Shown one piece after another: positions 5,402-58,511 of a stretch of 64,000 nucleotides of DNA. The number at the start of each line of letters is the position of its first letter. Within the stretch, counting starts at the first letter, position 1. Below the pieces are notes generated by a model that was given only the letters and a program-made list of their open reading frames with translations, did no database searches and was not told the DNA's origin. Source of the DNA: Treponema sp. (GTDB lineage: Bacteria; Spirochaetota; Spirochaetia; Treponematales; Breznakiellaceae); the NCBI GenBank assembly GCA_009781475.1, contig WQYB01000007.1, positions 1 to 64,000 of the forward strand, in the 5' to 3' direction. Both the position numbers and the translations under genes were made by a program.

Positions 5402-5484
5402 AACCACAGAGGACACGGAGTTTCACAGAGTCGCGATACGATAGCTCATTCTTCCTCCGTGTTTCTCCGTGTACTCCGTGGTTA
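5402..5484. repeat. Dispersed CACGGAG palindromic element, copy 1 (ftsA-ftsZ intergenic hairpin)
   Basis: Left arm AACCACAGAGGACACGGAGTTTCACAGAG, right arm CTCCGTGTTTCTCCGTGTACTCCGTGGTTAA; near-complementary, T-run follows. Confidence 0.85.
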
Positions 5485-9571: not shown

Positions 9572-11716
9572 ATGTCAACAGAAAAAACAGTGAAGACGAA
9601 ACCAGTAAAAAAGAAATCAAAACAGGAAAAACAAATTCTTGTAATTGTTGAATCCCCGGGTAAAGTGAAAACAATAGAAAAGTATTTGGGTCCCAGTTAC
9701 AATGTTAAGGCATCGATGGGGCATTTGATTGATTTACCAAAATCCAGAACAGCAATTGATGTTGATCATAACTTTGAACCTGAATATATAACTGTGCGCG
9801 GAAGAGCAAAAATTTTAAAAGAATTGCAGACAGATGCAAAAAAATCAGGCAAAGTGCTGCTTGCATGTGATAATGACCGTGAAGGTGAAGCGATAGCATG
9901 GCATTTACGGAATGCTATTAACGCAAAAACAGCGCAAGTTCCGATAGAGCGTATCAGTTTTAATGAAATAACGCCGCAAGCTGTTAACGAAGCGGTTTTA
10001 AATCCAAGAACAATTGATGAATCAAAAGTATCGGCGCAAAAGGCAAGACGTGTTTTGGACAGGCTTGTTGGATATAACCTGTCGCCGCTTTTGTGGAAAA
10101 AAGTAAAAAACGGTCTTTCGGCTGGGCGTGTTCAATCTGTTGCTTTGCGTCTTATCTGCGACAGGGAAAAAGAAGTTGAAAATTTTATCCCTGATGAATA
10201 CTGGACACTGGAAGCAGATTTTAAATCCGGTAAATCAGTTTATACCTCTCAGCTTATGTTATGGAATAACAGTAAGCCGGAATTAAAAAATGAATCTGAA
10301 GTAAATGCGATTATAGAAAAAATTAAAAATAACGAATGTATTGTTTCTGATATAAGAGAAACAGAAAAAACAATCAGGCCAAAAGCGCCGTTTACAACAT
10401 CACAGCTGCAGCAGACTGCGGCAAACCGCCTTGGTTTCACCTCACGCAAGACAATGCAGGTTGCGCAGCAGCTTTATGAAGGCGTAAGTCTTGGCGCTTC
10501 CAGGGTAGGTTTAATTACATATATGCGTACAGACAGCGTTAGAATTTCCAATACTGCGCTTGAAGATGTAAGGACATGGCTTGGTAAAAATTATCCCGGC
10601 GAGCTGCCTGAAAAAGCTGTTGAGTATACGGTTGGCAAGAATTCGCAGGATGCTCACGAAGCTATAAGACCGACATATACAGAATATACGCCTGATTCAA
10701 TAAAAGAACATCTTTCAAAAGATCAGCTTCGCCTTTATACGATAATTTGGGAACGTTTTGTATCAAGTCAGATGAGCAGCGCTAAAAGTAAAACAGTCAG
10801 CGTAGATATAAAAGTTACTGCCGGCTCTGAAGAAGGGATTTTCCGCGTCAGCGGTACAAAATTAATCGAAAAAGGTTTTTACAAAGTTATTAAACTTCTT
10901 TCATCTAAAGATGAAAACGGCGGCTCTTATCCTTCATTAAAAATCGGTAATGTTGTAAAAGTAGAAAAATTCAGAAGCGAACAGCACTTTACACAGGGAC
11001 CTGCCCGTTATTCGGATGCATCTATCGTAAAAACACTTGAAGAAAAAGGAATAGGACGGCCTTCTACTTACGCTTCAATTATTTCCGTTTTGCTGGATCG
11101 CTATTATGTTACGCGATCAAACAAACAGCTTGTCCCGACAGTTTTGGGAAAGTTGATTTACGAAGTATTGGTAGAACATTTTCCGCTTTATGTTGATGTT
11201 GATTTTACAGCGTCTATGGAAACAAAACTGGACGAAGTAGAAGAAAACAGAGTCAGCTGGCCGGAAATGATTAAAGAGTTCTGGCATCCGTTTAAAAATA
11301 CTGTTGATGAAGTAATTAAAACAGTTGAATCCTACAAAGGTACACTTGATGAAGTTACAGATTTGGTGTGCGAAAAATGTGAAAAACCCATGATGAAAAA
11401 ACTGGGACGTTTTGGATATTTTCTTGCGTGCTCGGGATTTCCCGAATGCAGAAATACAAAATCAGTGCCCCTTGCCAAATGCCCTAAGTGTGAAGGCGAT
11501 ATAATTGCGCGAAAAACAAAAGGCAGGGGAAAAGAATTTTACGGATGTACAAAATATCCTGATTGTGATTTTATCAGTCACTTTAAACCCATAAAGCAGG
11601 ATTGCCCCAAGTGCGGATTTTTTATGGTAGAAAAATACGACAAGAAAAACGGCGCTCACAAGGTTTGTATAAACCCCGATTGTGATTACTTACACAGTGC
11701 GGATGGAGACGAATAG
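9572..11716 (+). CDS. topA: DNA topoisomerase I
   Basis: Toprim (VIVESPGKVKTIEKYLG), YMRTDS active site, C-terminal C4 zinc fingers. Confidence 0.97.
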   Translation: MSTEKTVKTKPVKKKSKQEKQILVIVESPGKVKTIEKYLGPSYNVKASMGHLIDLPKSRTAIDVDHNFEPEYITVRGRAKILKELQTDAKKSGKVLLACDNDREGEAIAWHLRNAINAKTAQVPIERISFNEITPQAVNEAVLNPRTIDESKVSAQKARRVLDRLVGYNLSPLLWKKVKNGLSAGRVQSVALRLICDREKEVENFIPDEYWTLEADFKSGKSVYTSQLMLWNNSKPELKNESEVNAIIEKIKNNECIVSDIRETEKTIRPKAPFTTSQLQQTAANRLGFTSRKTMQVAQQLYEGVSLGASRVGLITYMRTDSVRISNTALEDVRTWLGKNYPGELPEKAVEYTVGKNSQDAHEAIRPTYTEYTPDSIKEHLSKDQLRLYTIIWERFVSSQMSSAKSKTVSVDIKVTAGSEEGIFRVSGTKLIEKGFYKVIKLLSSKDENGGSYPSLKIGNVVKVEKFRSEQHFTQGPARYSDASIVKTLEEKGIGRPSTYASIISVLLDRYYVTRSNKQLVPTVLGKLIYEVLVEHFPLYVDVDFTASMETKLDEVEENRVSWPEMIKEFWHPFKNTVDEVIKTVESYKGTLDEVTDLVCEKCEKPMMKKLGRFGYFLACSGFPECRNTKSVPLAKCPKCEGDIIARKTKGRGKEFYGCTKYPDCDFISHFKPIKQDCPKCGFFMVEKYDKKNGAHKVCINPDCDYLHSADGDE

Positions 11717-12699
11717 TGAATTTATCGAAAATGAATCACACGGAGACACGGAGACACGGAGTCACGGAGTTTAATTTAGTTAATGAATATTTATCGTATC
11801 TGCAGGCAGTGCGCGGATGCTCGGTGCGTACTCTTGAATCTTATGGTAATGATTTATCACGTTATGCAAATTATTGTACCAATCACAATATTGAAATTCA
11901 AAATGCCGCTCCTTATGAAGTTCAAAGTTTTATAGCTGATTTATCAGCGGAAAATATGGCTGCCGCAAGCGTAAACAGATGTCTTTCTTCAATTCGCGGA
12001 TTTTACCGCTGGATGGTTCGCTTTGATAAAAAAAAGGAAAATCCATGTACATCTTTAAAAAATATTAAAACACCTGTTAGAATGCCGAATGTTTTATGGG
12101 AAAATGAAATGGCAGATTTCGCCTCTCTTCCAGAATCATCAGGTATTTTATGGCCCGAAAGGGATAAGGCGTTAATCATGGCAATGTATTCGGCAGGTCT
12201 TCGCATCGGAGAAATAGTTACTTTAACGATGTCTAACATTTCTGCCAAATTTGATGAAGCAAAAATAACAGGAAAAGGCGGTAAACAGCGTTATGTGTTT
12301 TTCTCTGATGAAGCAAAAGAAGCTATTTTAGAGTATCTTCCAAAAAGAGAAACCCGTTTAAAAATGGCTGGAATCGACGGAAAAAAATATGCTTTATTTG
12401 TAAATAGCAAGGGAAAACCAATTTCAATTCCGGGAGTGCGCTGGATAATTTCACGTTATGCTCAGTATTCAGGAATTGGAAAAAATATTCATCCGCATTC
12501 GCTGCGTCACAGTTTTGCAACTCATCTTGTAAACTCAGGCTGTGATGTTCGTGTTGTACAGGAAATGCTCGGACATTCCAGCATATCGACAACACAGCGT
12601 TATACGCATGTTAATATCGAAAAAATGAAAAATGTATATATGAACGCGCATCCACACGCTAAAAATGTGGAAGGAGTAAAACATGAGAGAAAGACCTGA
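11716..12699 (+). CDS. xerC: tyrosine recombinase, XerC-like
   Basis: [40 protein letters not shown]; upstream of hslV as in codV-clpQ-clpY loci. Confidence 0.87.
11736..11770. repeat. Dispersed CACGGAG element, copy 2 (single arm inside the xerC N-terminal coding region)
   Basis: TCACACGGAGACACGGAGACACGGAGTCACGGAG, translated [12 protein letters not shown]. Confidence 0.85.
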
Positions 12700-18990: not shown

Positions 18991-19075
18991 TAACCACGGA
19001 GTACACAGAGTTTCACGGAGGAAGAAAAAACCTTCGTATTAAAACTCCGTGTTCCTCCGTGTCCTCTGTGGTTAA
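18991..19075. repeat. Dispersed CACGGAG palindromic element, copy 3 (fliG-fliH intergenic hairpin)
   Basis: Left TAACCACGGAGTACACAGAGTTTCACGGAG, right CTCCGTGTTCCTCCGTGTCCTCTGTGGTTAA. Confidence 0.88.
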
Positions 19076-57103: not shown

Positions 57104-57499
57104 ATGCCGCAGTTTCGCACAGAACGTCTTGGCCAGACGATCCAGGAAAAAATAGGCTCTCTTATCCTTGAAGGAAAAATAAAAGATAAAAGAGTTAATT
57201 CTTTTCTTTCCATTACAAAAGTTAAAGTGTCAAATGATTTGTCTTTTGCCGATGTTTATGTTTCTGATATTCGCGGAAAGATAAATGAAAAAGAAGTTGA
57301 AGGTCTTCAAAGCGCCGCAGGATTTATTCAATCGCAGCTCGGCTCTGTTATGCATATTAGAAAAACCCCGCGGCTTCGTTTTCACGCCGACACAAGCATA
57401 GGCGACGCTTTTGATCTGATCAAAAAAATTGAAAATTTGAATGCTTCTGAAAAGAATTCACACGGGGGCACAGAGGACACAAAGGACACGGAGTTATAA
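57104..57499 (+). CDS. rbfA: 30S ribosome-binding factor RbfA
   Basis: FRTERLGQTIQEKIGSLILEGKIKDKRVN...LRFHADTSIGDAFDLIKKIENL; between infB and truB. Confidence 0.9.
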   Translation: MPQFRTERLGQTIQEKIGSLILEGKIKDKRVNSFLSITKVKVSNDLSFADVYVSDIRGKINEKEVEGLQSAAGFIQSQLGSVMHIRKTPRLRFHADTSIGDAFDLIKKIENLNASEKNSHGGTEDTKDTEL

Positions 57500-57548
57500 T
57501 AAAAATTGTCTTACACCGTGCCTCCGTGCTCTCCGTGTCTCCGTGTGA
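57456..57548. repeat. Dispersed CACGGAG palindromic element, copy 4 (rbfA 3' end to truB)
   Basis: Left TTCACACGGGGGCACAGAGGACACAAAGGACACGGAGT; right CACCGTGCCTCCGTGCTCTCCGTGTCTCCGTGTGA; left arm encodes the RbfA tail SHGGTEDTKDTEL. Confidence 0.88.
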
Positions 57549-57569: not shown

Positions 57570-58511
57570 GTGAATAATGTATTGAGTTCTGGATTAATTT
57601 TATTTAATAAAAAGCCTGGTGTTACTTCTTTTGACGCATTGCGGGATATAAAACGTGTGCTAGGCACTGGCAAGGTAGGGCACACAGGCACTCTTGATAA
57701 ATTCGCTCAAGGGCTTTTAATAGTTCTGACAGGAAAGGCACTAAAACTAAGCCAATGGTTTACAAACTGCGATAAACAGTACATTGGAAAAATTAAATTT
57801 GGTATAGAGACTGACACACTTGATCCCGAAGGACTAGAAGTCGCCAAAGCGGATCTGCCTTCGCAAGAAAAAGTGCAGCAGGTTTTAAAACAGTTTACAG
57901 GAAATATTTTACAGGAGCCGCCTGTCTTTTCTGCCATTCATGTAAACGGAAAACGCGCTTCGGATTTAACACGTTCCGGGTTAACGCCGCAAATGAAAAA
58001 ACGCCCTGTTACAATTTATGAAATTAAATTGCTTAATTGGGAGCCGCCGTTTGCACAAATATTTGTTCATTGTTCAAGCGGTACATACATACGCTCCCTT
58101 GCAAGAGACATAGCCATTGCCGCCGGTACAAGAGCGCATCTTTGCGAACTTACTCGTACACAAGTCGCGGGATTTAAGCTTGATAACAATTTAATTCACA
58201 CGGAGGCACAAAGGCACAAAGAACACGGAGGTAGAGAAAACAAGGGTTTTAATATTCGTATAATTGATAAAAAAGTTATAACATCTTTAGGTATACCCTG
58301 GTTTGATATAAATGCTGATGAAGTAAAACAAGTTATTCACGGAAAGCCACTATATCCCATTTTAAATAAAAAAAATATTATAAACTCCGTGTCTCCGTGT
58401 CCCCGTGTGAACTCTTTTCCCAACCAAGCTGTAGCTATTTTCTGCGATGAAACCCTTATTGCCATTATTGAAAACAAGGACGGAAAATGGAAATACGGCT
58501 GTGTGATGTAG
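57570..58511 (+). CDS. truB: tRNA pseudouridine(55) synthase TruB
   Basis: GLILFNKKPGVTSFDALRDIKRVLGTGKVGHTGTLDKFAQGLLIV; GTG start. Confidence 0.95.
   Translation: MNNVLSSGLILFNKKPGVTSFDALRDIKRVLGTGKVGHTGTLDKFAQGLLIVLTGKALKLSQWFTNCDKQYIGKIKFGIETDTLDPEGLEVAKADLPSQEKVQQVLKQFTGNILQEPPVFSAIHVNGKRASDLTRSGLTPQMKKRPVTIYEIKLLNWEPPFAQIFVHCSSGTYIRSLARDIAIAAGTRAHLCELTRTQVAGFKLDNNLIHTEAQRHKEHGGRENKGFNIRIIDKKVITSLGIPWFDINADEVKQVIHGKPLYPILNKKNIINSVSPCPRVNSFPNQAVAIFCDETLIAIIENKDGKWKYGCVM
58194..58232. repeat. Dispersed CACGGAG element, copy 5 left arm, inside truB
   Basis: ATTCACACGGAGGCACAAAGGCACAAAGAACACGGAGGT, translated IHTEAQRHKEHGG. Confidence 0.85.
58384..58413. repeat. Dispersed CACGGAG element, copy 5 right (inverted) arm, inside truB
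   Basis: ACTCCGTGTCTCCGTGTCCCCGTGTGAACT, inverse complement of the left-arm family, translated NSVSPCPRVNS. Confidence 0.85.

Follow-up and report, generated by a model that had tools for sequence, protein, structure and literature searches.

The gene truB of this Treponema, which encodes tRNA pseudouridine-55 synthase, carries two arms of a short CACGGAG repeat, in frame and in opposite orientation. Each of these segments is probably a single-arm insertion of its own in a permissive loop, at a site that stays fixed while the type of repeat occupying it turns over. Dozens of other housekeeping genes in this organism have been entered by the CACGGAG repeat as well. The gene lies in a stretch of 64,000 nt (the window, Table 1), which is part of a fragmented metagenome bin (G000) with an estimated completeness of ~93% and an estimated contamination of ~5%. 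The genomes compared with it are likewise fragmented metagenome assemblies. The genome is presumably of termite-gut origin, and the genus includes termite-gut Treponema bins.

The truB gene is a single uninterrupted, stop-free frame with both arms inside, and its product matches the Pfam domain TruB_N (E 3e-49). Residues 7-206 align to solved TruB; the catalytic domain ends at residue 206, and site 1 follows directly after it. The arm at site 1 consists of four CAC(R)(R)AG units, with the G-rich strand in the direction of truB, and encodes the peptide ..HTEAQRHKEHGG.., and the arm at site 2 consists of three units in the opposite orientation, encoding ..SVSPCPRVN... The predicted insert peptides across the two arms are LDNNLIHTEAQR and VNSFPNQAVAIFCDE. 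With 4 versus 3 units and unlike unit variants, the arms are not close copies of one another. A preliminary description of the window had claimed opposite-orientation CACGGAG arms in frame in truB. This was borne out, with the frame open and both arms located, and the segments bracketed there were approximately right, the arms proper measuring 37 and 28 nt (Table 1). No frameshift was found that would mark truB as a pseudogene.

Table 1. Positions of truB, its two arms and other repeat copies in the window. The names xerC/D-like recombinase, ftsA-like and ftsZ-like come from reading the sequence and are presumed identities, as are other gene names given here without a Pfam or PDB match.
Feature	Positions	Strand	Length	Sequence or context
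truB	57570-58511	+	313 aa	tRNA pseudouridine-55 synthase
truB site 1 arm	58195-58231	+	37 nt	TTCACACGGAGGCACAAAGGCACAAAGAACACGGAGG
truB site 2 arm	58384-58411	-	28 nt	ACTCCGTGTCTCCGTGTCCCCGTGTGAA; C-terminal-domain loop
Native TruB block	58263-58352	+	30 residues	IDKKV...HGKPL, between the arms
Hairpin	57457-57548			28-nt loop; across the rbfA 3' end
Lone arm	11735-11772	+		In frame, ~codons 7-18 of xerC/D-like tyrosine recombinase ORF 11716-12699
Hairpin, AACCAC-ended subtype	5403-5482			Between ftsA- and ftsZ-like genes
Hairpin, AACCAC-ended subtype	18991-19073			Intergenic

The sequence between the arms had been described as reading like native TruB, and comparison within the genus agrees: the IDKKV...HGKPL block measures exactly 90 nt in all 33 aligned genomes, and the stretches on either side of it vary widely in length. 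In an AlphaFold model of TruB (pLDDT 85, pTM 0.83), the only internal segments with pLDDT <50 are residues 209-224 and 277-284, each of which overlaps an arm; outside those two segments, such values are found at the first four residues only. The arms are called insertions because arm-less relatives (~60-66% TruB protein identity) lack them; no target duplication was resolved.

The two arms belong to an abundant family. The window contains 23 copies of CACGGAG where 1.9 would be expected, a count that none of 100 shuffles reached, and the core CACACGGRGNCAC is present in 92 copies in the 3.29-Mb genome, against 0 copies of the reversed control. The catalogue for G000, which covers the stretches around pattern and BLAST hits and misses diverged copies, holds ~94 elements, made up of 49 facing arm pairs and 45 lone arms, some of them near contig ends because repeats break assemblies. 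Arms typically have 3 or 4 units with a period of 8-9 nt. TCA precedes the first CACGGAG in 108 of 140 arms, giving them a common outer end (TTCACACGG); lone arms are without a second end. Close pairs are nearly always ordered + then - (G-arm, then C-arm, with one exception), and their median loop is 26 nt. The AACCAC-ended subtype has a unit spacing of 9-10 nt and is also found inside genes, for example at G000:C5:40790 and C36:8107.

Hairpin copies sit mostly between genes, and within long ORFs lone arms are more frequent than pairs (26 of 42 versus 11 of 46, p=5e-4). When 700 nt on either side of the 45 lone arms were searched for an inverted partner, 11 arms scored better than any shuffle; near several others lies an arm that is weak or of another type, and the remaining ones have none within that distance. 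The arm in the presumed xerC/D-like recombinase ORF has no inverted partner within 700 nt and is conserved in the nearest relative among the genomes available (G017). In-gene arms use all three frames of the G-strand (11, 10 and 7 arms) and the two stop-free frames of the C-strand (9 and 8 arms). By hand count, ~22 in-gene lone arms are G and 10 are C, which is near the 3:2 ratio expected because one C-strand frame in three has a stop, and no orientation bias is claimed.

Hosts of in-frame arms were identified by Pfam or PDB matches as RimO, TrmD, RimM, DHFR, MutL, UvrC, HydF and MazG, as well as Dus, an RluA-type pseudouridine synthase, NeuB, a U32 peptidase and apolipoprotein N-acyltransferase. 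The openness of the host frames is partly built into the search, and the conserved-domain matches provide independent support. Two arms each were found in a Mur ligase and an ABC transporter, also identified by Pfam or PDB. Their order departs from that of truB: it is C-G in the Mur ligase and G-G in the ABC transporter, and an MtaB-like gene likewise has two arms in the order G-G. The inserts of RimO and DHFR align as additional residues relative to solved structures, and in TrmD ~39 residues separate two conserved blocks that are ~6 residues apart in solved TrmD. The rimM and trmD genes are neighbours (L088, G000:C31) with one arm each, and the ~39-residue insert of trmD appears to hold an other-type arm too (SQRRKGAEM...LRASVSPCE).

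Across the genus, copies of the CACGGAG-type core range from the count given above for G000 through 66 in G020, 58 in G026 and 43 in G017 down to 0, and the CGCAAAG-type core is found in 158 copies in G026, 38 in G017 and 6 in G000. A strict 19-base pattern is present in 5 of 120 genomes sampled phylum-wide. No distant spirochaete was seen with the arm residues of TruB, and within the genus related repeats fill the same two sites. In G017 (corresponding contig WQXE01000030.1), TruB is 75-77% identical. By inspection, six genomes have clear arms of this repeat superfamily at both truB sites; a three-genome clade (G023, G028 and G029) has them at site 2 alone and G009 at site 1 alone, and some genomes of the genus have no arm at either site. 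The six both-arm genomes are scattered among arm-less ones in one half of the tree. The truB loops differ in length among members of the genus even without arms, and the peptide VNSFPN in the arm-less G033, like other remnants seen by inspection, suggests former arms that have since decayed.

Several further observations concern the repeats of the genus and the truB region. In G026, G035, G030 and G016 (L068, L069, L060 and L061), truB site 1 holds an in-frame repeat of another type, GGGGACTGGGGACT / GTCCCCAGTCCCC, with peptides like GTGDWGLG and PSPQSPVP, and with a whole hairpin in G035. Arms recur at regular short steps of ~83 nt in G020:C143 and ~35 nt in G026:C54, which suggests that elements or arms form tandem arrays there. 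A duplicate of the last 75 bp of truB, 95% identical, lies upstream of rpsO on another contig of G000 (L120, G000:C5:50832-50915), where the duplicated end adjoins a CTCCGTG remnant. The gene rpsO is absent from the 1.5 kb after the intact truB (58511 onward) and is found within 1.5 kb downstream in most of 33 genomes. A rearrangement may have broken here near the site 2 arm; the alternative is bin contamination.

Orthologous sites of G000 and G017 often carry unlike repeats. In truB as well as in the rbfA hairpin, the two arms are of the CACGGAG type in G000 and of the CGCAAAG/CGCAGAG type in G017, in identical alignment columns. This first set of sites was found via arms in both genomes and is hence biased. 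A second set, free of that bias, was defined by lone arms of G000 only, with 12 sites queried and 10 recovered and aligned. By reading, four of these 10 sites carry the same type in G017. At three sites it is the other type, twice in the same and once in the opposite orientation; one site each has another repeat, unrelated filler or nothing. The empty site, the sole clean one, is in RimO, which is 48 nt shorter in G017, and its flanks are too diverged to show duplication. When sites were pooled, identity at same-type sites (n=8) was 94% in the arms and 91% in the 0-15 nt flanks; at different-type sites (n=7) it was 55% in the arms and 64% in these flanks, compared with ~80-85% at 30-120 nt. 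Such a pattern fits block replacement of the arm with some flank; much the same would be expected if arms had re-inserted independently and caused small deletions. Tentatively, a homing-like or conversion process may swap arms, along with ~30 nt of the sequence to either side, between species of the genus at chromosomal positions that stay fixed, which we regard as possible rather than probable.

The truB arms could alternatively be kept as a matched pair, forming an mRNA stem around a loop of ~150 nt with an effect on translation or stability, so that the pair is the functional unit; this is unlikely. Pairing of the arms in mRNA, raised in the preliminary description, is possible, with a predicted fold of -53.5 kcal/mol (z = -3.04; equalled or undercut by 1 of 200 shuffles), and the duplex between the two sites is strong in all six clear both-arm genomes (z -3.8 to -5.6), most of the other genomes showing a weak one. 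However, duplexes within genomes are not significantly better than those between genomes (515 of 5040 permutations did as well, p ~0.10). Arm covariation was rejected as proof of a truB RNA stem on this result, and there is no significant evidence of selection for truB mRNA pairing. No Rfam match was found in the window. The two sites are co-occupied above independence, in 6 of 7 site-1 genomes (naive hypergeometric p ~5e-4, with shared descent uncorrected), and all detected arms are G-rich at site 1 and C-rich at site 2, the pairing-competent order; both observations weigh against two separate insertions. The matched pair is, on the other hand, difficult to reconcile with the four single-site genomes, with the unlike types found together in G013 (a CACAAAG arm with CGCAGAG-type arms) and with the missing close partner of most other in-gene lone arms. 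Random expectation for 94 elements in 3.29 Mb is ~0.5 element pairs within 200 bp, so that two separate arms in one gene are unremarkable by themselves.

It is also doubtful that one truB arm came first and that the other arose as its inverted copy through replication template switching, a process that would at the same time be the source of the intergenic hairpins and of arm homogenisation. Inverted partner arms are abundant, with the G-arm before the C-arm at short range but for one exception, and G000 and G017 have unlike types in each of the two rbfA hairpin arms. Template switching has also been proposed for the coding palindromes of nematomorph mitochondria (PMC6649704). Against this reading, the truB arms are unlike in unit number and variants, hairpins of mixed type are present in G017, and many lone arms are without an inverted copy. 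Finally, although both loops are length-variable in the genus even without arms and the bin is fragmented and slightly contaminated, it is very improbable that chance or an assembly error has made ordinary variable loops of TruB look like the repeat, given the genome-wide core copies against none in the control, the mid-contig arms in several separate genomes and the related repeats in the same columns of the nearest relative.

A Rickettsia palindromic element (RPE) is a single palindromic stem-loop unit of 105-146 bp that encodes a conserved peptide; RPEs occur as several types per genome, in frame in many unrelated conserved genes as well as between genes, and are seemingly tolerated rather than useful (PMC10969869, PMC2229807). 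The CACGGAG arms are likewise found in frame in unrelated housekeeping genes (RimO, TrmD, RimM, DHFR, MutL, UvrC and HydF) and in intergenic regions, several repeat types are present per genome, and the inserts look tolerated. In contrast to RPEs, truB contains two arms split by native sequence, many in-gene copies are lone, and no one conserved peptide is encoded, three G-strand and two C-strand frames being used. Compared with RPEs by description rather than by sequence, the CACGGAG repeat resembles them in behaviour but fails their definition. Of the RPE likeness that had been proposed for truB, the in-frame entry into many unrelated housekeeping genes is supported, and the single palindromic element is not: the sites are separate, lone arms are common, single-site relatives exist, and the 154-nt loop is native TruB and the longest among the 49 arm pairs. 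One bipartite palindromic element was rejected as the main reading on these grounds.

Other known systems also share some features with the repeat. REP, BIME and REPIN sequences are short high-copy repeats whose opposite-orientation pairs form hairpins, mostly between genes and sometimes within them (PMC3733652). High copy number, inverted pairing and mostly intergenic placement are common to both, but a single CACGGAG-type arm is not itself a palindrome. Among 140 arms with 12-nt flanks, the REP tags GTAG/CTAC were found in 5 and CGTC/GACG in 6, most arms being tagless, and Y1_Tnp (PF01797; RAYT/IS200-type) had no match in the ~93% complete G000, with control genomes positive. A RAYT-driven REP system was rejected, as there is no Y1_Tnp gene and the tags are missing from most arms. 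MITEs such as ERIC/IRU and NEMIS/Correia are small non-autonomous elements with inverted ends, some of which are fused in frame to genes (PMC2229807). Small size and in-frame gene fusions are found here too. The hairpin copies have an outer end in common and the lone arms no second end, CACGGAG arms are tandem octamers able to stand alone, and neither a target-site duplication nor a parent transposase was identified. In nematomorph mitochondria, coding palindromes occupy positions common to species while their sequence changes (PMC6649704). Inverted repeats in protein genes, fixed positions and changing sequence are found in both cases; however, the nematomorph palindromes are perfect hairpins of conserved coding sequence, whereas here a repeat is added in variable loops and the stretch between the truB arms is native protein sequence. 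No paper in the collection searched by full text has the 15-mers of the repeat, and the listed titles and abstracts on termite treponemes and in-frame palindromes gave no earlier description of it.

Under the favoured reading of two separate single-arm insertions, a short repeat of 3-4 CACGGAG-type octamers has spread through this termite-gut Treponema. Intergenic copies are mostly inverted pairs that form hairpins, and in protein genes often a lone arm is present, probably tolerated, rather than beneficial to the protein, as long as the frame is kept and a flexible surface loop is hit. In TruB, one arm falls at the joint that follows the catalytic domain and the other in a C-terminal-domain loop. 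An occupied site would tend to remain so, and the repeat there may be exchanged as a block between CACGGAG and CGCAAAG types, with ~30 nt of flank, so that sister species carry unlike peptides in one loop.

In-frame invasion of conserved proteins by short repeats has been described chiefly in Rickettsia (PMC10969869). Here, an uncultured genus of gut spirochaetes shows it on a comparable scale, and the unit is often one arm. The 40 genomes available for the genus, with occupied, empty and differently occupied sites, make the spread and persistence of repeats in coding genes testable by comparison. If the homing-like or conversion reading is true, site-fixed cassette turnover would be a mode undescribed for bacterial palindromic repeats in the literature searched, and dozens of housekeeping proteins would carry exchangeable peptide cassettes in their loops.
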